From Clostridia bacterium (GTDB taxonomy: Bacteria; Bacillota; DTU025): 47,967 nucleotides of DNA. Each line of letters starts with the position of its first letter. The first letter of the stretch is position 1. The notes under the pieces were generated by a model that saw only the letters and a program-made list of their open reading frames with translations, was not told the origin of the DNA and searched no databases. The stretch is from positions 1-47,967 of the forward strand of contig JAYFQW010000008.1 of the NCBI GenBank assembly GCA_034926675.1. The letters run 5' to 3'. The position numbers and the translations under genes are program-made. Below, one piece after another: positions 26,126 through 47,967 of the stretch.

Positions 26126-27256
26126 TTATCCGAAGAGCATGCCCTCGAGTTTGTTCACCGCGCTCTGCTGCATGTCGGGCAGCACGTGCGAGTAGGTGTC
26201 GAGCGTCAGCTGGGTACTGGCATGCCCTAGCATGTCGGACACGATCTTGGGATGCTCGCCGGCGCCTAGTAGGAGCGTGGCACACGTATGACGGAGATCA
26301 TACAGGCGTATGGCATCCGGCAATCCTGCAGCTTTGAGCGCCGGCTTGAAATGGCGGTTCACCAGGTTGTGGCTGTCTAGCGGCTGGCCATTGTCTGCCG
26401 CGAACACGAGGTCCAGGTTCTGTTACTTGATCCCAGCACCCAGCCTCTGTTCAGCTTGCCTGCTCCTGTGAACCCGCAGGGCATGGACCACCGTGGGCAG
26501 GAGTTTGACGGTGCGCCTACTCTTCGGTGTCTTGGGCTCATCGAAACGCCATTCTGCCTTGTTCCTCACCAGACTCCGGCATACGTGGATCATGCTTTCA
26601 TCAAGGTTGACGTCCTTCCACTGCAGCCCTAGGTATTCCCCTGGCCTCATGCCGGTTGTGACTGCCAGCAGGAACAGGGCATACAGCGGGCTGCTCTCTG
26701 CGGAACTGAGGAACTGGGCTACTTCAGTTCTCGACATAGCGCGCATCTCGGTGTGCTTCTGACGCGGTAGATCAACATACTCAGCCGAGTTCTTAGGAAG
26801 CAGCTGCCACTTCACCGGCTGTTTCAACGCACTGCTCAGGACCGCATGGGTGTACCGAACGGTGCGCGGCGATAGCCCCTTCTCCAACATGCTGGTGTAC
26901 ACCCCCTGGACGTCGAGCGGGGTTATCGACGAGAGGGTTCGTAATCCCAATGATGGTCTCACATGGCGGTCCAACAGGCCACGGTAATCTGTCAAGGTCC
27001 GGCCCCTGACGCGCGGGGCGGCTGACGTCTCCAACCACCGATCCAGATACGCGTTCAGGGTCTCCTTCGAAGGCTCAACGAAAGTGCCCCGGTCAAGGTC
27101 ATTAAGTACGGATGTTCGATAACGCTGGGCGTCTTTCTTCGTGCCTCTGATGGTCTTGTTGTGATAGACTCGCCCTCCGGCCTCATCAACACCAATGCAG
27201 ACCCTGACTAAGTGCCTATCCTTGCCCCTGGTGATTATCTGGCCTCGTTCACGCAT
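26126..27256 (-). pseudogene. Tyrosine recombinase/integrase split by one in-frame stop
   Basis: The N-terminal part (27256 to 26423) has an arm-binding-like start (GGRVYHNKTIRGTKKDAQ), the core-binding SAM-like domain (TLNAYLDRWLE, LTDYRGLLDRHV) and the first catalytic Arg in TTGMRPGEYLGLQW. The C-terminal part (26407 to 26126) has LYDLRHTCATLLL (H-x-x-R region), LGHASTQLTLDTYSHV and the catalytic Tyr. A single TAA at 26420-26422 separates them in the same frame (GAGIK, stop, QNLDLVFAADNG). Everything else is intact, so this is a very recent knockout, a sequencing error, or readthrough. It is a phage/ICE-type integrase next to the BREX island and lies immediately behind the small RHH-like gene. 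Confidence 0.88.
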
Positions 27257-29491: not shown

Positions 29492-29528
29492 AATCATCAC
29501 CTCCAGAAAGTGAAATCCGAAGCTGATG

Positions 29529-29557
29529 TTGACATGAAATCTGCGCAGCCATATGAG
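29529..29557 (+). promoter_or_regulatory. Candidate promoter of the BREX operon
   Basis: TTGACA (29529-29534) and TATGAG (29552-29557) are 17 bp apart. The hexamers are a perfect -35 and a 4-of-6 -10. Transcription would start about 200 nt before the HTH gene. No other good promoter was found, but the call is by eye. Confidence 0.45.
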
Positions 29558-29762
29558 TCAGGGGCAGGTGCTACGGAGTACACCACATGAATTGGTGAAC
29601 AGGCCGACATTCAGCAAGAGTATTCCGAGTGAATATGAACCACTCAGTGTATACATAATACTACTAACTCATATCAAACCCGACAAAGTCCTTACAATTT
29701 GATGGCGAATATGTTACCATCACTAGTAGGTCTTAGTTGCAGGACAACCAGGAGGTAAGCAA

Positions 29763-29954
29763 ATGCCTAACGAACCTGAGAAATGGTCAAGCCTTGAGGA
29801 GATAGCCGAACACCTCGGCGTGAGTAAGGACACAATTCGCAACTGGATTAAGAAAGGCGTCATCCCGCACCGTCGGATAGGCAAGCAGTTCAAGTTCAGA
29901 ATTTCTGAAGTAGACGCTTGGGTCGACAGTGGCAAGAGCGCTGAGATTGAATAA
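29763..29954 (+). CDS. Excisionase-family helix-turn-helix protein
   Basis: The product has 63 residues: WSSLEEIAEHLGVSKDTIRNWIKKGVIPHRRIGKQFKFRISEVDAWV. This is the MerR-like/excisionase (HTH_17) domain, with helix-turn-helix at about 9-29 and the wing RIGKQFKF. AGGAGG sits before ATG 29763. It is the first gene of the BREX operon, about 50 nt before brxA. BREX loci often carry a WYL-domain repressor (BrxR) in this place. This protein could be a different regulator, or it could be a directionality factor for the island recombinase. Regulation of BREX is inference from position. Confidence 0.85.
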   Translation: MPNEPEKWSSLEEIAEHLGVSKDTIRNWIKKGVIPHRRIGKQFKFRISEVDAWVDSGKSAEIE

Positions 29955-30005
29955 GCCACCGATGGCAATTGAGGTCAAAGGGGCGTGAATGGGTGATCAA
30001 AAACT

Positions 30006-30611
30006 ATGGGCTTAACTATGCCGTACAACGGCTGCCTGACTGGTGAGCAGTTCCTGTTCTACGAGATGAGGATTGTTTCAGAGCAGTATCTTGAGGGCAA
30101 GCCGATTGAAGAAATAACCGAATACATCAAGCGGGATAATCTGTTCCAGTACCCGACGGAGCGCAAGATAAGTAAACTCGTCCGCGTCTGTCACAGGCGG
30201 ATTGTCGCGCTTGGCAACGAGAATCTGGTCTACGAGGTGGCGAACGCTCCCGTCGAGGTGGCGAAGCAGATTAACCTCTATGCGATGATGCGGTATAACC
30301 GCCTTGTCCGTGAGTTTATGGTTAATCTTGTCGGCGAGAAGTACCGTCAGCAGGACTTTTCTTACACCCGCAAGGACATCAACGTGTTTTTTTCCCGTCT
30401 GCAGGAGCAGAACGACAATGTAGCCGCTTGGAGCGAGCAGACGATAACCAAGTTGAAGCAGGTGCTGACCAAATGCCTGATTGAAACGGAGATGCTCGAC
30501 AGCGTTAAGGATACGACGCTGAACCCAATCTTCATCAGCGCGGAACTGGAAAGCGGCATCCGCCAAAACAACGACTTGACTGCGCTTGCCGCTTTCAACT
30601 GTTTCAGATAG
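30006..30611 (+). CDS. brxA: BREX protein BrxA (DUF1819)
   Basis: The product has 201 residues. NGCLTGEQFLFYEMRIVSEQYLEGK, then LFQYPTERKISKLVRVCHRRI, and further QDFSYTRKDINVFFSRL match the DUF1819 family, small DNA-binding proteins related to NusB-like inner-membrane-associated folds. BrxA is required in several type 1 BREX systems. No convincing ribosome site is seen; ATG 30018 (MPYNGCLTGEQ) is a good alternative start because most relatives begin near that point. brxB follows after 10 nt. Confidence 0.9.
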   Translation: MGLTMPYNGCLTGEQFLFYEMRIVSEQYLEGKPIEEITEYIKRDNLFQYPTERKISKLVRVCHRRIVALGNENLVYEVANAPVEVAKQINLYAMMRYNRLVREFMVNLVGEKYRQQDFSYTRKDINVFFSRLQEQNDNVAAWSEQTITKLKQVLTKCLIETEMLDSVKDTTLNPIFISAELESGIRQNNDLTALAAFNCFR

Positions 30612-30621
30612 GAACGTGACT

Positions 30622-31179
30622 ATGGAAGACATCAAACAGAAACTTGATAAAATCAAGGGGCGAATATCCGACGCGAACTTCCTCGCCAATAAGGGGCTTT
30701 CCAACGAAGTTGGTATTCACGTCTTCAAATACGCGCCGGAGTATGAACTCATGGTCCGCGACTACATCGAGCGGCTCGTCAGTACTCCGTCCGACGATTA
30801 TAGGGTCATCGAGCAGGATATGTACAAGATACTGCTTGAGATCTTGGAGGAGAAGCGGGTGCTTGGCACGGTGCCGGGGCTTGAGGAAAAGAAGGGTAAG
30901 GACTACCTGCTCGCCCAACTCCAGAAGATAGCGACGCCGGAGGCGTTCCTTGCCAAGATGAAGTATGAGCCGCACCAACGCGGCGACGTGCTATTTTTGA
31001 TGGGTGTCGGCAAAGTGTATCCCTTTATGCGGTCGCATAAGATGCTCGACAGTATGCAGCAGATGTTCTCGGATATACCGATTGTGATGTTCTATCCGGG
31101 GGAATTCAACGGGCACAGCCTAATCCTATTCAATAAGTTCCACGACGGTAACTATTATAGGGCGTTTAATTTACTTTAA
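30622..31179 (+). CDS. brxB: BREX protein BrxB (DUF1788)
   Basis: The product has 185 residues, the usual size of DUF1788. LANKGLSNEVGIHVFKYAPEYE near 20-40, LLEILEEKRVLGTVPGLEEKKGKDYLLAQL in the middle, then VLFLMGVGKVYPFMRSHKMLDSMQ and IPIVMFYPGEFNGHSL near the end are its hallmarks. Its role in the BREX complex is needed for defence but poorly understood. The open frame extends to 30586 inside brxA; ATG 30622 with AGGAA at 8 nt fits better. brxC follows after 15 nt. Confidence 0.92.
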   Translation: MEDIKQKLDKIKGRISDANFLANKGLSNEVGIHVFKYAPEYELMVRDYIERLVSTPSDDYRVIEQDMYKILLEILEEKRVLGTVPGLEEKKGKDYLLAQLQKIATPEAFLAKMKYEPHQRGDVLFLMGVGKVYPFMRSHKMLDSMQQMFSDIPIVMFYPGEFNGHSLILFNKFHDGNYYRAFNLL

Positions 31180-31194
31180 CCGGAGGAAATCACA

Positions 31195-34100
31195 ATGAAG
31201 ATTCAGAGTATGTTTCAAAAGGACATAAACCGTGACATCAACGGCGTTATTAAGGTGGCGCAGGACGACGAGTACAGCCTACAACAGGAACTTGGCGAGT
31301 ACATAATTACGAAGGAACTCCGCCGCCACTTTAATACTTTTTTTGATAACTACTCCAAAGCCATCGACCACCCGACCGACAAAATCGGGGTCTGGATTTC
31401 CGGTTTCTTTGGAAGCGGTAAATCCCACTTCTTAAAAATCCTGTCCTACTTACTGTCCAACCGTACGGTCGGTGGTAGAACCGCCGTCGACATCTTCAAG
31501 GACAAGTTCGACGACCCGATGATGTACGCCACGGTTGTCCGCTGCACTAATATTCCCACAGAGTCGATTCTCCTTAACATAGACATCGAGGGACCCATTA
31601 ACAAAGACAAAACGGCAGTTCTGCGCGTGTTCGCCAAGGTGTTCTATAACCACCTCGGCTTTTACGGCGAGGATTTGAAGATAGCGAAACTGGAACGCTT
31701 TGTGGACAAGCAGGGCAAAACCGAGGCATTTCGCAGAGTGTTTGAGGAAGTAAACGGCGCACCCTGGTTGGAGAGCCGCGCTTCCTACGCATTCTTTGAG
31801 GACGACATTGTGTCTGTTCTACAAAGTGTGCTTGGCATGAGCGAAACCGCCGCCCGCAACTGGTTCAACAGCGAAGAGAACGCCAACATGAGCATCAAGC
31901 AGCTCGTCGAGGAAATCAAGGAGTATGTGGACAGCAAAGGCAAAGACTTCCAGCTTCTATTCTGCGTGGACGAAGTCGGACAGTACATCGGCGACGATGG
32001 CGACCTGATGATAAACCTGCAGTCTATTGTCGAGGAAGTCGGTAGCAAGTGCCGGGGCAAGGTCTGGGTTATGGTAACGAGTCAAGAAGCCATCGACTCA
32101 GTTGTGAAAATCAGTGGCGATGACTTTTCTAAGATTCAAGGGCGTTTCAATACCCGTCTATCCCTTTCTTCCGCTTCGGTGGACGAGGTCATTAAGAAGC
32201 GTATCCTTGAAAAGACAGAGGACGCGGACGCACTTTTGAGTATGGTCTACGACAAGGAACGCGCCGTGTTGAAGAACCTTTTCACGTTCAATAACGCGGT
32301 GCTGGATATCAAAGGCTATGAGGACGGTGCTGAGTTCTCCGCTACATACCCGTTCGTGCCTTATCAGTTTATCATCATTCAGAAGGTACTCACCGAAATC
32401 CGCAAGCACGGCAATTCAGGAAAGCACCTATCGGGCGGCGAGCGTTCTATGCTCTCCGGCTTCCAAGAGGCGGCGCAGAAGGTACAGGGCAATTACGAGA
32501 ATGCCCTTGTATCTTTCTCGCAGTTTTACGACACGGTGCATACCTTCCTTGAAAGTTCGATACGCCGAGTGATAGACCGTTGCCAGACCGCCGCTGACAA
32601 GCGCGACGGCTTGGAGCAGCGTGACGTGAACGTTCTGAAACTGCTCTACCTCGTGCGATACATCGACGACATCAAGGCGAACATCGACAATATCGCCATT
32701 CTGATGGTGGATGACATCCGCACGGACAAAATAACCCTGAGGCGTGAAATCGCTGAATCCTTGGAGCGTCTGGAAACGCAGAACTACGTCGCCCGCAACG
32801 GCGACACCTACTCGTTCCTAACCGACGAGGAGCAGGACATCGCCATCGACATCCGCAACACGTCCGTGGACAGTGCGACAATCGTCCAGAGCATCGGGCA
32901 GACGATCTTCAGCGAGATTTACCCGTCAAAGAAATACAAATATAACAAATACGACTTCGCTTATGACCAGTACATCGATGAAACCCTCGTTGGTGCGGCT
33001 ACGGGCGGGGTACGTCTGCGTTTCGTCACGGTGGCAAGCGACTATTACAACGCACCCGAAGCGCGGCTGATTATGGACTCGCAGGTTAACAACGAGGCTA
33101 TCGTCCTACTATCGAACGACGCCCTATACTTCGAGGAACTTGAAACGGCCGCGAAGATTCGCAAGTACATCAAGCAAAAGAACGTATCTCAGTTGCCGGA
33201 GAGCATTCAGGATATTATCCGCAAGCATCAGGCACAGGCTCGGATGCTGGAAGAGAGTGCAAAGGTACAGATTGACAAGGCTATCATAGACGGGGTGTTC
33301 TTCATTTATGGCGAGAAGGTCGACATAAAGTGCGGCGACGCCAAGACTAGACTGGACGAAGCCTTGAAGCAACTGATAGAAAGTGTCTACTCGAAACTGA
33401 ACCTTGTGAACACGTTCAGTGAGAGCGACGCGGATATTCTAACTATCCTCAACGGAGAGCCGCAGCAGAGCGGACTGGTCGGAATTGGAAGCAATAACGA
33501 GTTTGCCTTAAACGAGGTCAGCCAGTGGCTTGAGGACCGCCATATGAGCCACGTCCCCGTTTCGATGGGCGACGTACAGCGCCGCTATCAGGCAATTCCC
33601 TACGGCTGGCGTGAGGTGGACATCGCCGCGCTTGTGGCAAGGCTTATCGTCGCACAAAGAATAGAAATCCGCTACGGCGGCGCGATCGTCGGCAAGGACG
33701 ACAAGAACCTCGTCCGCTATCTGCGCGTCAAATCCGAGATTGACAAGGCAAGCGTGAGCCGCCGAATCGCTCCATCAGAGGAAGATATGCGGAAAGCAGT
33801 CAAGTTTCTGCGCGACTGGCTCGGACAGATGAGCATTGCCGAGGACGAGGACGGCTTGCTGCAGTTCGTCAAAGACACGCTGACCGATAAAAAGAACCGC
33901 TACGAAGCCCTGATTGCCGAATACACTCACGACCGCTACCCGCAAAAGGAAGTCGTGATGAGCGCCCGTGACTTGATGAGTGACATTCTCTCGCAAAAGA
34001 ACGACAATGTAGCTCTCTTGAAACGCCTGCTTGCAAGGCAGGACGACCTGCTTGACAGCATCGAAGACATGGAGGAGATCGAAACCTTCTTCAAGTCCCA

Positions 34101-34719
34101 GAGGGGCATCTTTGATGCGGCGCGAAAACTTCAAACCGACCTGCAAAGTGAGCGGGACTACTTCGTCACTGACCCTAACACCAATGAAAAAATCAGCGAG
34201 ATTGCCGCTATCCTCGGTATGCCGAAGCCTTACGGACGGATCAAGGACCTCTCCGATCTGATGCAGTCCATCAAAACCGCCTATGGCGTTCTTTTGGAGC
34301 AAAAGAAAGAGGAAGTGCTCGGCATCATTACTCTATGTATGGGTGATGTCCACACACTTGCGGGCGTCAGATACAGAGCTAGCGACGAAGTTAGGAAGTC
34401 AGATGACCACTTCATCGAGTACAAGCAGAGAGTCGCCGACGCTACGAGCCTGACCGTGCTTGACGCAATGATAACGCAGCTACAGAACTGTAAAGACCAA
34501 GTTTGCAGGCGGGTGGAGTCCATGCTCCACGAAGACCCCGTGCCATACGGAACGGGCGCTGAAAAGCCGAAGCCGCAGAGAATCGTGCAAGTGCGCCGTT
34601 ACGATGTGTTTCCCGTCAAGCGGCTGACCTCACGCGAGGACGTGGACGGCTATCTTGATATTATCCGCAAGAAACTGTACGACACCTTGGAGGCAAATGA
34701 CGGAATCCAGATTAACTGA
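31195..34719 (+). CDS. brxC: BREX protein BrxC, large P-loop ATPase
   Basis: The product has 1174 residues, typical for BrxC (DUF499-related AAA ATPase). Walker A is FFGSGKSHFLK (71-81). Walker B is LLFCVDEVGQYIG near 254-266. VWVMVTSQEAID and the FNTRLSLSSASVDEVIKKRIL sensor region follow. The C-terminal half is helical and charged. BrxC is essential for BREX defence and methylation and probably assembles on DNA with PglX and PglZ. GGAGG lies 8 nt before ATG 31195. It ends 14 nt before pglX. Confidence 0.95.
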   Translation: MKIQSMFQKDINRDINGVIKVAQDDEYSLQQELGEYIITKELRRHFNTFFDNYSKAIDHPTDKIGVWISGFFGSGKSHFLKILSYLLSNRTVGGRTAVDIFKDKFDDPMMYATVVRCTNIPTESILLNIDIEGPINKDKTAVLRVFAKVFYNHLGFYGEDLKIAKLERFVDKQGKTEAFRRVFEEVNGAPWLESRASYAFFEDDIVSVLQSVLGMSETAARNWFNSEENANMSIKQLVEEIKEYVDSKGKDFQLLFCVDEVGQYIGDDGDLMINLQSIVEEVGSKCRGKVWVMVTSQEAIDSVVKISGDDFSKIQGRFNTRLSLSSASVDEVIKKRILEKTEDADALLSMVYDKERAVLKNLFTFNNAVLDIKGYEDGAEFSATYPFVPYQFIIIQKVLTEIRKHGNSGKHLSGGERSMLSGFQEAAQKVQGNYENALVSFSQFYDTVHTFLESSIRRVIDRCQTAADKRDGLEQRDVNVLKLLYLVRYIDDIKANIDNIAILMVDDIRTDKITLRREIAESLERLETQNYVARNGDTYSFLTDEEQDIAIDIRNTSVDSATIVQSIGQTIFSEIYPSKKYKYNKYDFAYDQYIDETLVGAATGGVRLRFVTVASDYYNAPEARLIMDSQVNNEAIVLLSNDALYFEELETAAKIRKYIKQKNVSQLPESIQDIIRKHQAQARMLEESAKVQIDKAIIDGVFFIYGEKVDIKCGDAKTRLDEALKQLIESVYSKLNLVNTFSESDADILTILNGEPQQSGLVGIGSNNEFALNEVSQWLEDRHMSHVPVSMGDVQRRYQAIPYGWREVDIAALVARLIVAQRIEIRYGGAIVGKDDKNLVRYLRVKSEIDKASVSRRIAPSEEDMRKAVKFLRDWLGQMSIAEDEDGLLQFVKDTLTDKKNRYEALIAEYTHDRYPQKEVVMSARDLMSDILSQKNDNVALLKRLLARQDDLLDSIEDMEEIETFFKSQRGIFDAARKLQTDLQSERDYFVTDPNTNEKISEIAAILGMPKPYGRIKDLSDLMQSIKTAYGVLLEQKKEEVLGIITLCMGDVHTLAGVRYRASDEVRKSDDHFIEYKQRVADATSLTVLDAMITQLQNCKDQVCRRVESMLHEDPVPYGTGAEKPKPQRIVQVRRYDVFPVKRLTSREDVDGYLDIIRKKLYDTLEANDGIQIN

Positions 34720-34733
34720 GCGAGGGCAATGAC

Positions 34734-37700
34734 ATGAACAAGAACGCCATACAAAAATATGCGGTATGGGCTCGGAACGAGCTAATCGATCAAGTGAAGC
34801 AGCGCGCCTATCAATACGGCATCAGCGACAAAGGCTACGGCGACGAAAACGCATCAGTTATAGCCGGGCGTGTGCTGTCGGCAGACGAGAAGCGGCAACG
34901 CTGTGAGTTTGTCACGCTGATAAAAGAGAACGGTTATCAGCAGGCTGTTGAGGAAGTGGCGTACACTTGGTTCAACCGCTTTGTTGCCCTGCGCTTTATG
35001 GAGGTCAACGACTATCTGCCTTCCCACGTTCGTGTGTTCTCCGACGCGAATGGCGAGTTCAACCCCGAAATCCTGAAAGAGGTTCTGCACCTTGACTTGC
35101 CGGAGTTGGACAAGACGAAGGTGTCTGAGCTGCTGAACGCTAACCAAACCGAGGAACTCTACCGTTACCTCTTGTTGATACAGTGCAACGCACTAAACGC
35201 TGCTCTGCCGGAGATGTTCGGGAAACTGGGAAGCTACACCGAAATGCTCCTGCCAAACAACATTCTCAAACAGGACAGCGTACTCGCCCGCCTTGTGAAG
35301 GATATTCCCGAAGAAGACTGGCGCGATGCTGTGCAGATTATTGGGTGGCTATACCAGTATTACAACACCGAGCCGAAGCAAGCCGTGTTCGACGGCTTGA
35401 AGAAGAACATAAAAATCACGAAAGATAAAATTCCTGCCGCGACGCAGCTTTTCACACCAGACTGGATTGTACGGTATATGGTGGAGAACAGCCTTGGTCG
35501 GCTGTGGGTCGAACGCTGCCAAGTTGAATCCGGCTTGGATTCAACCTATATGAACGGCAGTTACTTTGGTTGGAAGTACTACATTGAGGAAGCCAAGCAA
35601 ACGCCAGAAGTCGCAGAGCGTCTACGCTTTCTACGTTCGCAGTCTCCCGTGAAGTCGCCGGAGGATATTCGCCTAATCGACCCGTGCATGGGCAGCGGCC
35701 ACATACTGGTTTACGCTTTTGACGTGTTGATGCAGATATATGAGATTGAGGGCTACAATCCCCGTGACGCGGCGAAGCTGATACTCGAAAAGAACCTCTA
35801 TGGTCTAGACATCGACCGCAGAGCTTATCAACTTGCCTATTTCTCGCTGATGATGAAAGCGCGGCAGTACAACCGCCGCATTTTCACCGAGGACGTAAAG
35901 CCGCAGGTCTACCGCCCTACGGGATTCCTGGACGGCGAGGAATACGGCTCACTCGTGAAAGTGGAGTCGATACCGCCGAGGCCTGTTGAAAAACCAGGGC
36001 AGTTGAGCCTTGAAGATACCGCCTATGCTCTGCAACTCAATGCTTGGAACTTCAAGCGTCTTTTGGCGCAGAAGTACGACGTTGTAGTAACCAACCCGCC
36101 GTATATGGGCGGTAGGGGTATGGGCGCGAAGCTATCTAAGTTTGTGAAGAAGAACTACCCTGATAGCAAGAGCGACCTTTTCGCCGTGTTTGTTGAGAAG
36201 TGCGGCGAACTGCTGAATGCCACGGGCTATCAGGCGATGATTACGCAACACACTTGGATGTTCCTGTCGAGCTATGAGAAACTGCGCGGCAAGCTGATTC
36301 ATCGCGACATCGTTAATATGACGCACCTCGGCGCAAGGGCGTTTGAAGAAATCGGCGGTGAAGTCGTGCAGACGACCGCCTTCGTGCTGTCAAAACGCAA
36401 TATCGCCGACTTTGAGGCGAGCTATGTCCGCTTGGTGGATTACAACAGCCAACAAGCGAAAGAGAAAGCGTTTTTGTCCGGTACCAACCGCTACACCGCA
36501 ATAAAAGAGAACTTCGAGAAGATACCCGGCTGCCCTGTGGCGTATTGGGTGGGGGATAATATTATATCAGCGTTCACTTTTGGAAGTAACTTTGGTGATG
36601 CTGTAAAGTTCTGTGTAGGTATATCAACAGCCGACAACAATAGATTTCTACGGTATTGGCACGAGATAAGAAATTCCGACTTTGCAATGCCTGTCGAAAC
36701 AACAGATGAAGTTAAACGTGATAAAAAGTGGTTTCCTTTTAACAATGGTGGAGAAACGAAACGATGGTATGGTAATAATTTTTTAGTAATCAACTGGGAG
36801 AATGATGGCAGGGAGATAAAAGCGACTGGTAGAGCGTCAATCCGAAACAAGGATTACTATTTTCAAGCTGGTTTTACATGGTCAGATGTTTCAACAGGGA
36901 GAATAGGACTAAGACAATTCTCATTCGGCCATATTTTCTCGACGGCAGGATTATGTGTTTTTGGTCACGAAAATCTGAATTTCGTTGTTGCATTCCTTAA
37001 TAGTGTTGTTAGTAAAGCGTTGTTGGAAATTCTTTGTCCTTCGATTCACTTTAATATCGGAGACCTTGCCAAAATTCCTATATTAGAATATTCCCTGTAT
37101 AGGTTAAGAATCGACTCGTTAGTTGGTAAAAGCGTTACTGTCTCCCGTGCCGACTGGGATGCGTTTGAAACCTCGTGGGACTTTAAGGCTCATCCGCTCG
37201 TTGCCTTTCGACTCGCGGGAGCATCCGCTTGGGGTGACAACGAACCAGTTCGTCGGATTAGCTCCGCATATAAAGCGTGGGAAATGCTAGCCGATGGTCG
37301 TTTTCAGACCCTCAAAGCCAACGAGGAAGAACTCAACCGCATATTCATTGACATCTACGGTTTGCAGGACGAACTCACGCCAGAGGTTGAGGACAAGGAC
37401 GTAACCGTGCGCCGCGCCGATTTGGGGCGAGAGGTTCGCAGTCTAATCAGCTACGCCGTGGGCTGTATGTTCGGACGGTACTCGCTCGACGTGGAGGGGC
37501 TTGCCTACGCCGGCGGCGACTGGGATGCGGGCAAATATCGGTCGTTTATCCCCGACAAGGACAATATCCTTCCCATCTGCGACGATGAATATTTCGATGA
37601 CGACATTGTGGCACGGTTCACGGAGTTCGTCCGTGTGGTCTACGGTGCGGAAACCTTGGAGGAGAACCTGGAGTTTATCGCCGACGCGCTCGGAGGCAAA

Positions 37701-38129
37701 GGTACTCCGCGCGAGGTCATTCGTAACTACTTCTTGAATGATTTCTACAAAGACCATGGCAAGACTTACCAGAAGCGCCCGATTTACTGGCTGTTCGACA
37801 GCGGTAAGAAGAATGGCTTCAAGGCCCTGACCTACCTACACCGCTACTCGCGTGACCTGCTCGCCAAACTGCGGACGGATTATGTCCATGAACAGCAGGA
37901 GCGTTACCGCACACAGCTTACGCACATCGCCGCCGCTCTGAACACCGCGACGGGACCGGAGCGCGCACGGCTGCTCAAACAGCAGGATAAACTGACAGAG
38001 CAGTCGCGTGAAATAGGAGTGTATGAAGAAAAGGTTCACCACCTCGCCGATATGAACATCGCAATGGACCTCGACGACGGCGTGAAGAAGAACTACGGGA
38101 TTTTCGCCGACGTTCTTGCGAAGATATAG
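34734..38129 (+). CDS. pglX: BREX site-specific adenine methyltransferase PglX
   Basis: The product has 1131 residues. SAM motif I is DPCMGSGHILVYAFD near 314, and the catalytic motif NPPYMGGRG is near 453, so it is an N6-adenine methyltransferase. It marks one strand of a short asymmetric site on host DNA and is also needed for phage exclusion in type 1 BREX. The part at about residues 607-802 (36555-37140) is visibly AT-rich compared with the rest and corresponds to the presumed target-recognition region. By direct count, 36721-36780 has 19 G/C of 60 and 36001-36060 has 29 of 60. The frame is intact. The next gene starts 16 nt later. Confidence 0.95.
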   Translation: MNKNAIQKYAVWARNELIDQVKQRAYQYGISDKGYGDENASVIAGRVLSADEKRQRCEFVTLIKENGYQQAVEEVAYTWFNRFVALRFMEVNDYLPSHVRVFSDANGEFNPEILKEVLHLDLPELDKTKVSELLNANQTEELYRYLLLIQCNALNAALPEMFGKLGSYTEMLLPNNILKQDSVLARLVKDIPEEDWRDAVQIIGWLYQYYNTEPKQAVFDGLKKNIKITKDKIPAATQLFTPDWIVRYMVENSLGRLWVERCQVESGLDSTYMNGSYFGWKYYIEEAKQTPEVAERLRFLRSQSPVKSPEDIRLIDPCMGSGHILVYAFDVLMQIYEIEGYNPRDAAKLILEKNLYGLDIDRRAYQLAYFSLMMKARQYNRRIFTEDVKPQVYRPTGFLDGEEYGSLVKVESIPPRPVEKPGQLSLEDTAYALQLNAWNFKRLLAQKYDVVVTNPPYMGGRGMGAKLSKFVKKNYPDSKSDLFAVFVEKCGELLNATGYQAMITQHTWMFLSSYEKLRGKLIHRDIVNMTHLGARAFEEIGGEVVQTTAFVLSKRNIADFEASYVRLVDYNSQQAKEKAFLSGTNRYTAIKENFEKIPGCPVAYWVGDNIISAFTFGSNFGDAVKFCVGISTADNNRFLRYWHEIRNSDFAMPVETTDEVKRDKKWFPFNNGGETKRWYGNNFLVINWENDGREIKATGRASIRNKDYYFQAGFTWSDVSTGRIGLRQFSFGHIFSTAGLCVFGHENLNFVVAFLNSVVSKALLEILCPSIHFNIGDLAKIPILEYSLYRLRIDSLVGKSVTVSRADWDAFETSWDFKAHPLVAFRLAGASAWGDNEPVRRISSAYKAWEMLADGRFQTLKANEEELNRIFIDIYGLQDELTPEVEDKDVTVRRADLGREVRSLISYAVGCMFGRYSLDVEGLAYAGGDWDAGKYRSFIPDKDNILPICDDEYFDDDIVARFTEFVRVVYGAETLEENLEFIADALGGKGTPREVIRNYFLNDFYKDHGKTYQKRPIYWLFDSGKKNGFKALTYLHRYSRDLLAKLRTDYVHEQQERYRTQLTHIAAALNTATGPERARLLKQQDKLTEQSREIGVYEEKVHHLADMNIAMDLDDGVKKNYGIFADVLAKI

Positions 38130-38145
38130 TGGGAGGTGAACGGAC

Positions 38146-39753
38146 ATGCGGGGATACATCACGATTGAGGAACTGCTGAATGCTCCCGAAGGCGAGCATT
38201 TCGAGTTCAAGGAAGCAAAAACGCGCTTTGATTCAAACGAAGCCGCGAGATACTGCTGCGCCCTGTCAAATTGGGGCGGCGGCAAGTTCGTGCTTGGCAT
38301 CAGCGACAAACGTCCACGCCAAGTGGTCGGAAGCAACGCCTTTGACCAGCCGGAGCGCACTCGCCAAGGCTTAATGGATAAGCTGCGCGTCCGCGTGGAC
38401 TTTGATACTCTTGAACAAGACGGCAAGCGCGTACTGGTATTCGATGTGGCGGGTCGTCCGTTAGGTCTGCCCGTTCAAGTGGATGGTATTGCTTGGTGGC
38501 GCGATGGGGACAGCCTTGTTCCGATGCCGGAGGATGTGCGCCGCAGGATTTACGATGAAACGGGCTTTGATTTTTCGGGTAGTGTCTGCCCCGGCGCAAG
38601 TATTAAAGACTTAGGCGAGAACGCAATTAACGCTTTCCGTAGTAAATGGGCTGAAAAGAGTGGCAGCAGCCGCGTTAAGAACCTGTCAGCGGAGCAACTG
38701 CTCATCGACTGTGAGGCAATATCGGGCGGTGGCGTGACCTATGCGGCATTGGCGTTGTTCGGCACACGCGCCGCACTCGGAAAGTATCTTCCGCAATCTG
38801 AGATAGTGTTTGAGTACCGCTCGTCGGATGCTTCGGGTCCGGCACAGCAACGTGAAGAGTTCAGGGTGGGCTTTTTCGCCTGCTACGACCGCATATGGGA
38901 GCTTATTAACCTGCGGAACGACAAACAGCATTATCAAGACGGTTTGTTCGTCTTTGATATACCGACGTTCAATGAGCGTGTCGTGCGCGAGGCCCTGTTA
39001 AATGCTGTCAGCCACCGCAACTACCAGTTTAGCGGAAGCGTGTTCGTCAGGCAGTATCGCGACAGGCTTGTTGTCGAGAGCCCCGGTGGGTTCCCGACTG
39101 GTGTGACGCTCGACAATATCCTTGACAGGCAATCGCCACGCAACCGTCGTATCGCCGAGATACTTGCGCTCTGCGGTTTGGTCGAGCGTTCGGGTCAAGG
39201 TATGAACCTGATTTACGAGTTGAGTATTAAGGAAGCAAAATCGCTCCCCGACTTTCGCGGCACGGACGATAACTTCGTCACCATTACGCTGAACGGTTTG
39301 GTGCTTGACCGAAAAATGTTGTCGCTGATAAACAAAATCGGCAATGAACGACTCGAAGCTATGGCGACCGACGATTTTCTTGTAGTGAACGCCCTGTTCC
39401 ATGAGAAACCGCTGTCTGACACCCTGCGGCTGCGCACCAAACGGCTGATTGAGTTAGGCTTGGTTGAACACGTCAGCCGTAACAAGTTCGTATTGGCTCG
39501 CAGTTTATACGAAGCCACGGGCAAGTCAGGCGTTCATACTAGACTTTCGGGTTTGGACCGCGATACGAACAAGGAGTTGATCCTGAAACACATTCGCAAG
39601 AACGGCGAAAACGGCACGCCCTTCAAAGAGTTGGAACAAGTTCTGCCAAGTCATTCGAAGAACCAGATAAAGGTGCTGATGAGAGAGTTGAAACAAAGCG
39701 ACCAGGTTTATGTTGTCGGCAAAACCTCGTCAGCAAAGTGGTTCGCAAGATGA
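38146..39753 (+). CDS. AlbA_2/Schlafen-like and HATPase domain protein (BREX accessory)
   Basis: The product has 535 residues. Residues about 15-110 form an AlbA_2 domain (EGEHFEFKEAKTRFD, ALSNWGGGKFVLGI). Residues about 270-400 hold a GHKL-type ATPase (VREALLNAVSHRNYQF N-box, ESPGGFPTGVT, NRRIAEILALCGLVERSGQGM). The last 130 residues look like winged helices (NKELILKHIRKNGENGTPFKELE). Such COG2865-type proteins are ATP-binding regulators or defence accessories. The slot between pglX and pglZ is where type 1 BREX loci often carry an extra gene. Just behind its stop, the same frame would read LGTKLGT, a linker type I recall from this family. Its contribution to defence is not known. Confidence 0.88.
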   Translation: MRGYITIEELLNAPEGEHFEFKEAKTRFDSNEAARYCCALSNWGGGKFVLGISDKRPRQVVGSNAFDQPERTRQGLMDKLRVRVDFDTLEQDGKRVLVFDVAGRPLGLPVQVDGIAWWRDGDSLVPMPEDVRRRIYDETGFDFSGSVCPGASIKDLGENAINAFRSKWAEKSGSSRVKNLSAEQLLIDCEAISGGGVTYAALALFGTRAALGKYLPQSEIVFEYRSSDASGPAQQREEFRVGFFACYDRIWELINLRNDKQHYQDGLFVFDIPTFNERVVREALLNAVSHRNYQFSGSVFVRQYRDRLVVESPGGFPTGVTLDNILDRQSPRNRRIAEILALCGLVERSGQGMNLIYELSIKEAKSLPDFRGTDDNFVTITLNGLVLDRKMLSLINKIGNERLEAMATDDFLVVNALFHEKPLSDTLRLRTKRLIELGLVEHVSRNKFVLARSLYEATGKSGVHTRLSGLDRDTNKELILKHIRKNGENGTPFKELEQVLPSHSKNQIKVLMRELKQSDQVYVVGKTSSAKWFAR

Positions 39754-39809
39754 CTTGGAACTAAGCTTGGAACCATCTTAGAACTAACTTGGAACTAAAG
39801 GTTCCAAGT
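39754..39809 (+). repeat. Phased CTTrGAAC repeat array with hairpin before pglZ
   Basis: Four copies of CTTGGAAC (one CTTAGAAC) start at 39754, 39766, 39777 and 39788, spaced 12, 11 and 11 nt, about one helical turn. An inverted copy (39801-39808) pairs with the last to give a perfect 9-bp stem (39787-39795 with 39801-39809) and a 5-nt loop. pglZ starts 15 nt later. It may be an operator array, an attenuator, or decayed coding repeats. Confidence 0.8.
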
Positions 39810-39824
39810 CAACGGAGGAACACT

Positions 39825-42416
39825 ATGCTGTCAGGAACGATAAAACTAAGGCTTGCGGAACGGTTCGCCGCGCCGCTGCCGGAATTTCATAAACGCCGAA
39901 TTGTCTTCTGGCACGATGAAGACGGTGAGTTTGCGGATGCAGTTGACGAACTCGACTTGCCCGGCGTGAGCCTCGTCAAACTTGATGGTAGGAACAACTT
40001 CGCCGTCAAGAAGCTGTTGTCAAGCGACGACCTGACAGGAGACTACCTTATCTATGACCCGCTGTCCTACGAGAAAGACCTCAAAGACGACTGGCTCTTG
40101 GACATCAAGCTGTTCAGCGAGGAGTTCCGCGCCGACCGTGTGTCACTCCAAATGGAAGAACTGCTCGTTGAGCCGTCCTCGCCGATGCGCAAGGCGATGA
40201 AGCTGTACGCAAAGTTCCTTGACAACAAAGACCGCAAAGCAAAACTACGAAGAATAGGCAGAACGTACCAGACCCCGCTGCAACTCCACATCGACATTAT
40301 GGCGGTGCTGTGCGGTCTGGCCGGCGGCTCGGCTCAGGACGTGATTATTGCCGTCCTGTCGGCGGATTTGGAGAAAGAGAACAACGACGCACTGGTCAAC
40401 ATAGAGAAGTTCGGCAACATCGAGGCGTTCTGGCAGCTGGTACAGAAGTACACAGGTTATGTGAACGCAGAGGACCGCCCGCTTTCCGACCTTGCCGCCC
40501 ATGTCCTTATCACCGCCCTGTCGCAGACGATGCCCGTTTCTGCTCTGCGCGGCCTGGAGCGGTATGTTTCTGACTCTAACAAGGCGTACTGCTATCAGCT
40601 TGTCCACGAGTGGCAGCGCGGCGACAGCAGCGACGACTTGGCGGAACTTTGCCGCTATGTGGAGCGAGAACTGCGTCTTGCTGATCGTTTTGACAAGATC
40701 GAGACAAATGCTCTCTTAAAGAGCGACGCATTCCCCGCCATCGATGAGAGTATACTGAAACGCTTTTTCACCGAGATTGGTGAGCAAGTTATTAAGGTTG
40801 ACGCTATCCTGGAAGCGGTGGAGAACCGCCGCGCTTCCAGCTGGTATCCCATGACGGATAACTACTTTGAGTGTCTATACTACATCGCCAAGATGCAGGA
40901 GTTTTACTTGGCACACATCGAAGGTTTTCACATTGTAGAGCCCGCTAGGGTTTGGAAACTCTACACGACGGACGCTTACCAGATGGACAGCCACTATCGG
41001 CATTTCCATTATTATTTCGGTAATACCCTGAAAGCCCCGAACGCTCTATTGGAGGACTTTTTGAAGAAGTGTTCCGACGTGGTCGAGGGCTTGTACCGTG
41101 AGTGGTTCTTAAAGGAACTTACTCTTGCTTGGACAAAAGCCATAGCGGGTGATTTGAATACGCTCGGCTATGTTTCTGAGATAAATGAGCAACGCCAGTT
41201 CTACAGTCGTTACGTCTCCCCAAATGTGAGCAAGGGAAACCGCGTGTTTGTGGTGATATCCGACGCACTGCGCTTCGAGGTTGCCACCGAACTCTCCGAA
41301 GCCCTCAGCCGCAACACCAAGGGCAAGACGACACTGGAAGCCGTGCAAGCCGTGTTCCCAACCATTACGAAATTCGGAATGGCGGCCTTGCTCCCCGGCA
41401 AAGAGGTATCAACAAACGACAAGATTGAGGTATTCGTGGACGGGAGTGCGACCGTCAGCACCGCCCAACGCGGTGCGATTTTGAACGCCGCGGACAAAGA
41501 AAGCGTCACCATCCAATATCAAGACATGCTCCAGATGAAGCAAGCCGACCGCCGCGCTTTGGTACAGGGCAAGGCTATCGTCTACATCTATCACAACACG
41601 ATTGACGCGCTCGGCGACAAAGCTGCCACCGAAACAAAGGTGTTCGAGGCTTGCGAGACTGCGATTGACGAATTGACAGCCATCGTGAAGATAATCGTGA
41701 ATGACCTGAGCGGCATTAATATCCTCATCACCGCCGACCACGGCTTCCTATACACCTACAAACCGCTTGAGGAAAGCCAGAAAATCAGCCGCCAGACTTT
41801 TAACGGCGAGATACTCGAACTCGGTCGGCGTTACGCGCTTGTGCCGCCCGAAACGAGCGCCGAATACCTCCTGCCTGTCAAGACGGAGCGGACGTTTGGC
41901 GGCGTTCCGATGAAAGGCTACGCCCCGCATGATACCGTCCGTATCAAGGTACAGGGCGGCGGTGCAAACTACGTCCACGGCGGTATCAGCTTGCAGGAGA
42001 TGGTCGTGCCGGTCATCGTCTACAAGGGTATGCGGACGGGTTATAAGAAGTATGTAGAAGTGCAGAATCCGGGGTTGACACTGATTTCTGAGAGCCGCAA
42101 GGTGTCAAACCTGATGTTCTCCCTTGACTTCCTGCAAAAACAGCCCGTTGGCGATAAGGTGCAACCCTGCAACTACACACTGCATTTCACCGACGATGAG
42201 GGCGTTCCCGTCAGCGACTTCCAGACGGTTATCGCCGACAAGGGCAACAGCAACGCTTCCGAGCGCGTGTTCCGCGTGAGGTTCACGCTAAAGCCGATGC
42301 AGTACAACCGCAACAAACTATACCGCCTTATTATTGCGAACGAAACCGATGTTCCCGAAGAAGTCGAGTTCCGCATTGACATAGCGTTCGCCGATGACTT
42401 CGGCTTTGACCTGTAA
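39825..42416 (+). CDS. pglZ: BREX alkaline-phosphatase-fold protein PglZ
   Basis: The product has 863 residues. The alkaline-phosphatase superfamily domain shows VFVVISDALRFEVATEL near 475-491 (first metal site), a QDMLQMKQADRRAL segment, and LITADHGFLYTYKPLEES near 635 (second metal site), followed by the beta-rich C-terminus (VHGGISLQEMVVPVIVYKG). PglZ is a core BREX component; homologues show phosphodiesterase/nuclease activity. A longer open frame begins at 39789, but GGAGG at 39814-39818 places the start at ATG 39825. The hairpin array lies just upstream. brxL follows after 15 nt. Confidence 0.95.
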   Translation: MLSGTIKLRLAERFAAPLPEFHKRRIVFWHDEDGEFADAVDELDLPGVSLVKLDGRNNFAVKKLLSSDDLTGDYLIYDPLSYEKDLKDDWLLDIKLFSEEFRADRVSLQMEELLVEPSSPMRKAMKLYAKFLDNKDRKAKLRRIGRTYQTPLQLHIDIMAVLCGLAGGSAQDVIIAVLSADLEKENNDALVNIEKFGNIEAFWQLVQKYTGYVNAEDRPLSDLAAHVLITALSQTMPVSALRGLERYVSDSNKAYCYQLVHEWQRGDSSDDLAELCRYVERELRLADRFDKIETNALLKSDAFPAIDESILKRFFTEIGEQVIKVDAILEAVENRRASSWYPMTDNYFECLYYIAKMQEFYLAHIEGFHIVEPARVWKLYTTDAYQMDSHYRHFHYYFGNTLKAPNALLEDFLKKCSDVVEGLYREWFLKELTLAWTKAIAGDLNTLGYVSEINEQRQFYSRYVSPNVSKGNRVFVVISDALRFEVATELSEALSRNTKGKTTLEAVQAVFPTITKFGMAALLPGKEVSTNDKIEVFVDGSATVSTAQRGAILNAADKESVTIQYQDMLQMKQADRRALVQGKAIVYIYHNTIDALGDKAATETKVFEACETAIDELTAIVKIIVNDLSGINILITADHGFLYTYKPLEESQKISRQTFNGEILELGRRYALVPPETSAEYLLPVKTERTFGGVPMKGYAPHDTVRIKVQGGGANYVHGGISLQEMVVPVIVYKGMRTGYKKYVEVQNPGLTLISESRKVSNLMFSLDFLQKQPVGDKVQPCNYTLHFTDDEGVPVSDFQTVIADKGNSNASERVFRVRFTLKPMQYNRNKLYRLIIANETDVPEEVEFRIDIAFADDFGFDL

Positions 42417-42431
42417 GAGGAGGACTTCGCA

Positions 42432-44507
42432 ATGAATTTAGAACAGACAAGCTATATGCCGGAAACGGATGACGCGAATGAGGTCATCTATCGGAAACTG
42501 CGCCAGCATTTCGACGGCAAGATTGTCCGCAAAGATCTGACCAAGGCGATCAAGGAGGGTGCGAACGTTCCTGTCTATGTCTTAGAGTTTTTACTTGGAC
42601 AATATTGCAATTCCGACGACCCGAAGATAATCGAGGAAGGCGTGAAAAATGTCAAGCGAATTCTCTCGGAGAACTTCGTACGCCCCGACGAAGCGCAGAA
42701 GGTGCTGTCCGGCTTACGTGAGCGCGGCAGTTACACGGTTATCGACCGCATAACCGTCATCCTGAATATCAAACTCGACCGCTACGAAGCCGATTTCTCA
42801 AACCTCGGTATCCGTAACATTCCCATATCCTCGGATTATGTATCGAAGTACGACCGCCTGCTCTGCGGCGGCATTTGGTGCATTGTCGGGCTTGAATACG
42901 AGTATGTCGAGGAAGACAAGAAGTCCACGCCGATTCGAATTGTGAAACTCACGCCCATTCAGATGCCTCACATCGATATGCACGAAATAAAAGACGGTCG
43001 CCGTGCCTTTACCAAGGACGAGTGGATTACCGTCCTGCTCCGCTCCACGGGTATGGAGGCAGACCGTTTCAGCGACAGAGAGAAGTGGCTACAACTTGCC
43101 CGTATGCTTCCGCTCATTGAAAACAACTTCAACCTCTGCGAACTGGGGCCGCGCAGCACGGGCAAGTCGCACCTTTACAAGGAAATCTCGCCGAACAGTA
43201 TCCTCGTGTCCGGCGGGCAGACCACGGTCGCCAACCTTTTCTACAACATGGCGAGCAAAACCGTGGGGCTTGTGGGCTTGTGGGACTGCGTCGCGTTCGA
43301 CGAAGTAGCGGGTATCACATTCAAAGACAAAGACGGCATTCAGATAATGAAGGACTACATGGCTTCCGGCTCGTTTGCCAGAGGAAAAGAGGAAAAGGCG
43401 GCATCCGCGTCGATGGCTTTTGTGGGCAACATCAATCAGAGTGTGGACGTGCTGCTGAAAACATCGCACCTCTTTGACCCGTTCCCCGAAGCGATGGCGT
43501 ATGATACGGCATTCCTTGACCGTATGCACTGCTATATCCCCGGCTGGGAGATACCGAAATACCGCCCCGAATCGTTCACCAACGACTACGGCTTTATCAC
43601 GGACTACCTCGCGGAGTTTATGCGCGAGATGAGGAAAGAACCGTTCGGCGACGTGTGCGACAAGTACTTCCGTTTTGGCAGGAACCTGAACCAGCGTGAT
43701 GTCATCGCCGTCCGCAGAATAGTGTCAGGCTTCACTAAGCTGCTCTATCCCAACGGTGAGTTCAGCAAGGAGGACATCGAGGAAATCCTGACCTTTGCCC
43801 TCGAAATGCGTCGCCGTGTCAAGGAGCAGTTGAAGAAAATCGGAGGCATGGAGTTCTATGATGTGAACTTCTCTTACATCGACAACGAGTCCTTTGAGGA
43901 ACGTTATGTTTCCGTGCCGGAACAGGGCGGCGGCAAGATAATCCCCGAAGGGCTGACAAATCCGGGTAACGTCTACACCATCTCGCAGGGCAAGAGCGGG
44001 ATGATAGGCGTGTACCGTCTTGAAACGCAGATGCTCCCCGGCAACGGAAAGTTCGAGCGCACTGGGCTTGGCTCCGACCGTGACGCAAGGGAAGCCACGA
44101 ACACGGCGTTCAACTTCCTGAAAGCCAGCGGAAACCAGATAAGCGGCTCGATAAGCACGACGACAAAGGACTACATCAGTAACTATCAAGACCTCAACGG
44201 CATCGGAATGACTAAGTCGTTGACCCTGCCGACCGTGATTGCCCTCGCATCCTGCGCCCTCGGCAAGCCGACACTTTCAAGCCTCGCCGTACTTGGCGAC
44301 ATTAGTATCAGCGGCACAATCCTCAAAGTCGAGGAACTGGCAAGCGTCTTGCAAGTCTGTCTCGACAGCGGCGCGAAAAAGGTGCTGATTCCGATAACAT
44401 CTGCCGCCGAACTTGGCGCAGTTCCGGCAGACCTCATTGGAGCGTTCAGCCTCATTTTTTACTCAACCCCGCAGGAAGCTGTGTTTAAGGCTTTGGGCGT
44501 GGAATAG
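42432..44507 (+). CDS. brxL: BREX Lon-like AAA+ protein BrxL
   Basis: The product has 691 residues, the standard BrxL size. The AAA+ domain has Walker A LGPRSTGKSHLYKE near 238 and Walker B-like LWDCVAFDEVAG near 283. The C-terminal third is a Lon-protease-like domain (LPTVIALASCALGKPTLSSLAVLGDISISGTI ... ELASVLQVCLDSGAKKVLIP). Structural work on BrxL homologues shows an MCM-like ring on DNA; proteolysis is unproven. GAGGAGGA precedes ATG 42432. It is the last gene of the operon. No terminator is seen before the IS66 end 105 nt later. Confidence 0.95.
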   Translation: MNLEQTSYMPETDDANEVIYRKLRQHFDGKIVRKDLTKAIKEGANVPVYVLEFLLGQYCNSDDPKIIEEGVKNVKRILSENFVRPDEAQKVLSGLRERGSYTVIDRITVILNIKLDRYEADFSNLGIRNIPISSDYVSKYDRLLCGGIWCIVGLEYEYVEEDKKSTPIRIVKLTPIQMPHIDMHEIKDGRRAFTKDEWITVLLRSTGMEADRFSDREKWLQLARMLPLIENNFNLCELGPRSTGKSHLYKEISPNSILVSGGQTTVANLFYNMASKTVGLVGLWDCVAFDEVAGITFKDKDGIQIMKDYMASGSFARGKEEKAASASMAFVGNINQSVDVLLKTSHLFDPFPEAMAYDTAFLDRMHCYIPGWEIPKYRPESFTNDYGFITDYLAEFMREMRKEPFGDVCDKYFRFGRNLNQRDVIAVRRIVSGFTKLLYPNGEFSKEDIEEILTFALEMRRRVKEQLKKIGGMEFYDVNFSYIDNESFEERYVSVPEQGGGKIIPEGLTNPGNVYTISQGKSGMIGVYRLETQMLPGNGKFERTGLGSDRDAREATNTAFNFLKASGNQISGSISTTTKDYISNYQDLNGIGMTKSLTLPTVIALASCALGKPTLSSLAVLGDISISGTILKVEELASVLQVCLDSGAKKVLIPITSAAELGAVPADLIGAFSLIFYSTPQEAVFKALGVE

Positions 44508-45675: not shown

Positions 45676-46497
45676 CTAAATCCTACCTATTTCGGACGGC
45701 GCCGGCTGATCTGAGCATGCTCCGGGATCCGCCATCTTCGTCACCCCGCTTCGTGTCTTGCTTTGCTTTAGTCGGTATGATTGACCCGTTAGGACAAAGG
45801 TATGAACGTGATGAGTCAGCCGATCTAGTAAGGCGGCCGTCATGGTCACGTCTCCGAACACTTCAGCCCACCGAGAGAACTCCAGGTTACTGGTGATGAT
45901 CAAGCTGGACTTTTCGTACCTTTGAGCGAAAAGCTGAAACAGTAGAGGACCCCCGGGCCCGAGGCTGACGCAGCCCAGTTCATCAGCGATCAGAAGGTCA
46001 ACCTTCTCCCACGACTTCAGTAACTTGGGGAGGCGGAACTCCCTTTCTGCCTGGATTAGTTCCTGAACTAGAGTTGGCACGGTCGCGAAACGCACCCGGT
46101 AGCCAGCCTGGATAGCCCTCACACCCAGGCCAATGGCAAGATGGGTCTTGCCCAGGCCGGAGTTCCCCAGGAGAACGAGGTTCTCGTGTTCGCGGACGAA
46201 ACTGCCGTCAGCCAGGGCCAAGATCTTCGTCTTGTCAAGGGTCGGAACAGCATCGAAATCAAAGGAATCCAGAGTCTTGACCGTGGGGAATTTGGCCAGC
46301 TTCATCCTCGTAGCCATTGCGCTTTGATGTCTGCCTTCGATTTCGTGGGCAAGACAGGAACCCAGGAACTCGACCATCGAGTAGCCGTTTGCCTGCGAGT
46401 CCCTCAGGATCTGCCTGAAGCCCTTGCGTAGAGTCGGCATCTTAAGGGCTTTGCAGTACAGTTCGATCATGGCTTCCGCAGCTTCGTGGTTCACCAT
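45676..46497 (-). CDS. istB: IS21 helper ATPase IstB
   Basis: The product has 273 residues. An N-terminal helical domain is followed by Walker A GNSGLGKTHLAIGL near 111-124 and Walker B VDLLIADELGCVSLG near 165. SLIITSNLEFSRWAEVFGD and the sensor part LLDRLTHHVHTFVLTG complete the IstB/DnaC-like pattern. It assists IstA in target selection and transposition. Its ATG overlaps the istA stop (ATGGTGA at 46497 to 46491), which indicates translational coupling. Confidence 0.95.
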   Translation of the reverse strand: MVNHEAAEAMIELYCKALKMPTLRKGFRQILRDSQANGYSMVEFLGSCLAHEIEGRHQSAMATRMKLAKFPTVKTLDSFDFDAVPTLDKTKILALADGSFVREHENLVLLGNSGLGKTHLAIGLGVRAIQAGYRVRFATVPTLVQELIQAEREFRLPKLLKSWEKVDLLIADELGCVSLGPGGPLLFQLFAQRYEKSSLIITSNLEFSRWAEVFGDVTMTAALLDRLTHHVHTFVLTGQSYRLKQSKTRSGVTKMADPGACSDQPAPSEIGRI

Positions 46498-47951: not shown

Positions 47952-47967
47952 CTTAAGCAATTCCTTT

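Follow-up and report, generated by a model that had tools for sequence, protein, structure and literature searches.

The target recognition domain (TRD) of PglX (BrxX), the adenine methyltransferase of type I BREX, is already known to set specificity, to be the most variable part of the protein and to be amenable to engineering (PMC11341690, PMC11842806; review PMC12707154), and interrupted or phase-variable pglX genes have likewise been described (PMC7513527, PMC9716671). In the Salmonella protein the TRD comprises residues 662-849, and the base preceding the methylated adenine goes with particular residues at positions 802 and 838 (Salmonella numbering): Lys802 with C, His838 with G and Asn838 with A (PMC11341690). 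The sixth base of the site is read by a loop of the methyltransferase domain, residues 587-601 in E. coli (PMC11842806).

The pglX gene considered here belongs to a complete type I BREX operon, brxA brxB brxC pglX pglZ brxL, in a 47,967-nt stretch of a Clostridia bacterium genome (contig JAYFQW010000008.1 of GCA_034926675.1; hereafter the window). Compared with PglX/BrxX of Salmonella and E. coli HS (PDB 8c45, 9ewz; PMC11341690, PMC11842806), it has the same domain order, operon, fold (TM 0.90), catalytic motifs and TRD position, but differs in its TRD sequence and in the AlbA/HATPase gene lying between pglX and pglZ; moreover, TRD exchange would be natural here, whereas there the change was engineered. 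With type I HsdS and the type IIG/IIL enzymes it shares replacement of the specificity domain between conserved flanks (PMC12707154 and general knowledge), although here TRD and methyltransferase reside in one BREX protein without a nuclease, and the longer exchange unit additionally carries along the base-6 reader, which belongs to the methyltransferase domain. In lactobacilli the same gene varies in phase beside a recombinase (PMC7513527), and in one relative, L077, the variation is directed at the same anchors; for the window's gene, however, no second copy, repeat or silent cassette was found. Given the evidence set out below, we consider it likely, at a probability of about 0.88, that the TRD block of this pglX came, by recombination, from another pglX whose backbone is unrelated.

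Operon, domain map and surroundings

The gene is a single uninterrupted frame whose product matches profile NF033452 with 1361 bits against a curated cut-off of 500, and it carries the invariant gamma-class motifs, namely the SAM site (D316, G320 S321 G322 H323) and NPPY (N454 P455 P456 Y457). Its predicted structure (mean pLDDT 88; Foldseek match to Salmonella PglX 8c45, TM 0.90) recovers the fold of the solved protein, including the TRD, the spacer helices (residues 787-808 and 842-875 in the model) and the C-terminal domain. An initial annotation had located an A+T-rich block where the DNA-target domain was expected, and alignment to 8c45 bears this out (Table 1); in the model, the block corresponds to the TRD, the first spacer helix and the tip loop. 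Within the 5' anchor, I597, P598, G599, P601, Y604 and W605 are near-invariant.

Table 1. Positions of BREX genes and of pglX features in the window
Feature	Position	Strand	Remarks
brxA, brxB, brxC	30006..34719	+	
pglX (brxX)	34734..38129	+	predicted 1131-aa (1131-codon) type I BREX adenine methyltransferase and specificity factor; NF033452, Foldseek 8c45
Catalytic NPPY motif	36093..36104	+	residues 454-457; 5' edge of longer exchange unit in other relatives
Methyltransferase-domain loop, equivalent to E. coli base-6 reader loop	36327..36371	+	residues 532-546; outside exchanged block
5' anchor KIPGCPVAYW	36519..36548	+	residues 596-605; conserved, upstream edge of exchange
TRD proper	36549..37082	+	residues 606-783, equivalent to Salmonella PglX 662-849; alignment to 8c45, limits from PMC11341690
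Exchanged cassette by third-position G+C (TRD, first spacer helix, tip loop)	36555..37304	+	codons 608-857; change-point fit, identity profile
Ala738, specificity residue	36945..36947	+	equivalent of Salmonella Thr802; alignment to 8c45
His772, specificity residue	37047..37049	+	equivalent of Salmonella Ser838; alignment to 8c45
3' anchor DWDAFETSWDFKAHPLV	37152..37202	+	residues 807-823; split relatives stop behind it
Variable tip loop between the two spacer helices	37203..37256	+	residues ~824-841; fission/insertion point in relatives
Conserved segment LKANEEELNRIFIDIYGLQDELTPEV	37311..37388	+	residues ~860-885; backbone identity resumes
SLFN_AlbA_2 / HATPase_c_4 accessory gene, between pglX and pglZ	38146..39753	+	
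pglZ and brxL	39789..44507	+	

Beyond the operon, a tyrosine recombinase-like gene (26423-27256, minus strand) lies 2.7 kb 5' of brxA, without a demonstrated link to pglX, and IS21 transposase and IstB-like genes (45676-47960, minus strand) follow directly 3' of brxL. The PADLOC assignment of the IstB-like protein (45676-46497) to DISARM DrmD was rejected, as it looks like a cross-match to the IS21 ATPase. Neither a structured RNA nor an intron was found in the window's BREX region.

Composition of the block and of recognition domains in relatives

The block, first reported at 36555-37140 within an open frame, exceeds every other 588-base stretch of the 48 kb in A+T content: GC at 36556-37143 is 0.372, the next lowest value being 0.459. 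Block codons 607-802 have a GC of 37.6% and a GC3 of 31.6%, against 52.1% and 66.2% in pglX 5' of the block and 55.4% and 67.5% 3' of it. Fourfold-site GC is 0.273 in the block versus 0.683 in the pglX backbone (Fisher p = 1e-10), and amino-acid composition accounts for just 0.014 of the block's 0.156 drop in GC. A maximum-likelihood change-point fit to third codon positions delimits the cassette listed in Table 1 with a log-likelihood gain of 42.5; 200 codon shuffles gave no more than 10.3. The reported start is thereby recovered exactly; the reported end holds for the overall GC dip, which stops at ~37140, but the third-position signal continues to 37304, where backbone identity resumes at residue 861. 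The largest 196-codon drop in GC3 is 0.35 in pglX versus 0.07-0.13 in the window's brxC, pglZ and brxL.

Low G+C had also been taken as the sign of a swap, with the same low G+C in all homologues named as an observation that would count against it. This argument failed, since low G+C is not peculiar to this gene and the named observation largely holds. Among the 80 PglX loci of the comparison set, fourfold-site GC is lower in the TRD than in the backbone in 74, drawn from several phyla (significantly in 56; significantly higher in one locus), the mean falling from 0.570 in the backbone to 0.303 in the TRD. TRD composition tracks that of the backbone weakly (slope 0.35), and in the same loci the mean largest GC3 drop is 0.22 in pglX versus 0.08 in brxC, pglZ and brxL. 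Across ~80 loci, judged on the equivalent of residues 607-802, silent-site A+T-rich TRDs are also seen in G+C-rich hosts such as L098 and L094. With low G+C present family-wide, composition neither dates nor proves the window's particular swap; likewise, it does not refute it, because the swap rests on phylogeny.

Given this family-wide bias, A+T-richness might simply be an intrinsic demand of the domain, exerted through composition, codons or mRNA, and so be uninformative on origin. Yet the amino-acid contribution is small, one homologue (L052) has no drop, and another (L039) holds the same TRD type as the window's at a GC3 of 0.62, so that low G+C is not forced by the protein sequence; the tree incongruence described below would also be left unexplained. 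An intrinsic demand as the whole explanation thus seems quite unlikely. Either A+T-rich TRDs come mostly from A+T-rich donors, or a fast-moving domain drifts to an A+T-rich equilibrium.

Probable exchange of the recognition domain

High identity outside the block and low identity inside had been proposed as the check on a swapped specificity cassette, and this is the pattern found. The nearest backbones (L022, L024, L025, L026) are 86-87% identical to the window's PglX outside the block and 31-39% inside (26-35% in another alignment). L022, L023, L031 and L068 remain highly identical to it up to residue ~580-600, after which identity collapses; in L024-L028 and L074 the collapse comes already behind NPPY, at residue ~460-480; and all full-length genes of both groups are back to 90-100% identity at LKANEEELN, residue 861. 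Conversely, L035 and L039 have backbones 52-60% identical to that of the window's PglX and blocks 66-69% identical, and the TRD tree groups the window's PglX with these two (support 100/99). On the TRD, AU tests reject a grouping with the nearest backbones (p 1.6e-53), and on the backbone they reject one with L035 and L039 (p 4e-104); the groups were picked after identities were seen, but the likelihood gaps are very large (181 and 146 units). A two-row AU test with L022 alone gives rejection too (p 0.003). The block and the rest of pglX have different histories, and at silent sites the block contrasts strongly with its backbone, a contrast seen family-wide. Since the block groups with genes of distant backbone while the AU tests reject a common history, it is best understood as an exchanged specificity cassette, and the swap suggested in the initial annotation is strongly supported.

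Further support comes from two Selenomonadaceae contigs, L047 and L054, whose DNA matches at 96-100% as far as KIPGAPVAYWVS and once more from KIPVLI onwards, but at 14-63% in the stretch between. At the level of sequence this pair is a clean natural swap between near-clonal genes, with edges at the limits of the solved domain. Divergence of the block in place, by fast evolution under selection and without exchange, would agree with the TRD being the most variable part of PglX (PMC11842806) and with most pairs sharing just 25-45% TRD identity; it is nevertheless very unlikely in light of a block closer to L035/L039 than to its nearest backbones, the incongruent trees and AU tests, and the sharp DNA edges of the L047/L054 pair.

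Programmed phase variation, in which the block would be exchanged with silent or inverted cassettes of the same genome, has precedents among relatives (an inverted partial pglX with inverted repeats in L077, an orphan TRD frame in L101), and the upstream tyrosine recombinase gene would fit it. The window's own genome (97% complete), however, contains no second or silent TRD, and within 29500-39800 there is no inverted repeat, nor any direct repeat at both block edges, making such a programme highly improbable. An assembly chimaera inside pglX can practically be set aside, for although the genome is a 90-contig draft, the frame is open throughout, the block folds as a TRD with good confidence, and the same edges recur in many independent assemblies, some of them from isolates.

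Searches of plasmids, phages, 398 genomes of the phylum and viral contigs turned up no donor above 69-71% amino-acid identity. Plasmids gave 34-42% among the matches listed and phages 27-36%; the sample of 398 genomes gave only G212, the genome of L039, at 70%, and the viral contigs a single match at 71%, L133. The latter (IMGVR_UViG_3300006226_001718), filed as viral, has a pglX C-terminal part identical to that of L035, and is probably cellular DNA or a prophage-borne BREX. No full-length pglX was found in the seven same-family genomes searched.

Acquisition by homologous recombination could have proceeded through the conserved segments flanking the TRD, KIPGxPxAYW upstream and ETSWDF and LKANEEELN downstream, and use of these flanks would permit in-frame replacement of the cassette with catalysis and complex assembly undisturbed. 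A type I BREX PglX would be expected to methylate adenine at N6 in a single asymmetric 6-base motif and to exclude phage. Since bases 1-4 of that site are read by the TRD, the swap would have re-addressed both self-methylation and phage exclusion. At the equivalents of positions 802 and 838 the window's PglX has Ala738 and His772, L022 and L025 have Asn at 838, and L024 has Lys at 802; the predicted base before the methylated adenine is accordingly G in the window's PglX, A in L022 and L025, and C in L024. These predictions are tentative because the residue rule is a correlation, and mutants based on it broadened rather than switched the motif. The base-6 reader loop is not part of the short exchange unit but falls within the long unit that starts behind NPPY. 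L022 and L023 have practically the same loop as the window's PglX, and those of L024 and L025 differ from it. The swap would thus have left the base-6 reader as it is in L022 and L023, while the longer unit would replace it in other relatives, suggesting two nested exchange units, one that may change bases 1-4 and another that may also change base 6.

The same exchange appears to be ongoing across the family, with circulating cassettes that are A+T-rich in nearly all hosts. Over 2211 pairs, TRD identity shows no correlation with backbone identity (rho 0.002), whereas the N- and C-terminal backbone parts, as a control, correlate at 0.865; these values indicate that the TRD is traded freely between distant bacteria and that exchange is general across the family. 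No reports of complete decoupling of TRD and backbone, or of a family-wide silent-site bias, were found in literature lying largely outside subscription journals.

Relatives also show other arrangements. In L077 (5974-12848) a full pglX is accompanied by a partial one in inverted orientation that stops at the 3' anchor; three places hold inverted repeats, of 145, 93 and 71 nt, and the arrangement is invertible. L052 (5971-12890) has a tandem pair of complete pglX genes. L078 (6501-7400) and L083 (8500-9708) carry in-frame extra segments of ~250 and ~370 aa at the tip loop, with no Pfam match and lacking in the sister genes L043 and L036. A second PglX insertion point, at residue ~930-938, is seen in L079 (9090-9526), where it contains a 23S_rRNA_IVP/bAvd-like gene, and in L143 (5910-6322).

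Split genes and wider implications

In 10 loci pglX consists of two frames (L066, L075, L079, L082, L084, L086, L100, L101, L143, L148). PglX-N terminates with DWDxxETSWDFxxHPL[IV] and a stop, exactly there in nine of the ten, and PglX-C starts near the second spacer helix, before LKANEEELN, typically with M[AG]xLISxKYxxW followed by LKANEEELNRIF; several loci offer a plausible ribosome-binding site for it. In the structure, the split point is the loop between the two spacer helices, right behind the cassette. Other BREX genes are present where the locus extends far enough, and L066, from Oscillibacter valericigenes An907, is complete. Short frames may reflect gene decay, but the shared end points, the new start sites and the intact genes around them favour a functional split pglX. 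Trees of the N and C parts (FastTree, rough) require at least seven changes of split state, which implies that it was gained, lost or moved on several occasions. In the window pglX is fused, yet it has the same variable loop.

Recognisable cargo genes lie between the parts in seven of the ten loci: DUF4760 in L066, a HEPN-like gene in L075, DUF559 in L082, YoeB and PIN toxin-antitoxin genes with an AlbA/HATPase gene in L084, a DUF1016 nuclease in L086, PIN_3 in L100, and HEPN-like, DUF2971 and RhuM genes in L101. In L143 and L148 the intervening sequence is unclassified, and in L079 there is hardly any. L101 combines two PglX-N and one TRD-only frame with a single PglX-C downstream, the TRD-only frame (8249-9019, between the PglX-N copies) running from NFSKIPGSPIAYW to DWDSFETSWDFKKHPLV and a stop. 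In L084 (2934-4338), three copies (100, 94 and 76%) of a 49-nt direct repeat of the ETSWDF codons stand 5' of successive cargo genes, with remnants of the PglX-C start between the repeats, which looks like repeated insertion at one place. Introns or structured RNA were rejected as the cause of inserts in split pglX, the only candidate being an xerDC RNA in L066, far from pglX. No report of a uniform pglX split with cargo was found in the literature covered, from which subscription papers were largely absent, and a 2026 BREX survey (PMC12839542) uses neither 'split' nor 'fission'.

The chances seem roughly even that the cassette border is a natural fission point, with PglX-N and PglX-C reassembling through the spacer helices in some BREX systems. 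If so, a single PglX-C could work with several interchangeable PglX-N, and defence and toxin-antitoxin genes could settle in the gap between the parts. The natural exchanges also provide naturally tested limits for swaps, residues 606-783 or 608-857, or a stretch beginning behind NPPY where base 6 should be altered as well, and they raise the question of why recognition cassettes are silent-site A+T-rich in almost every host. More broadly, a single domain of PglX is the main determinant of BREX specificity, and the data from ~80 systems indicate that this domain is a free-moving cassette, whose mobility explains how a BREX site can change in a single recombination step.
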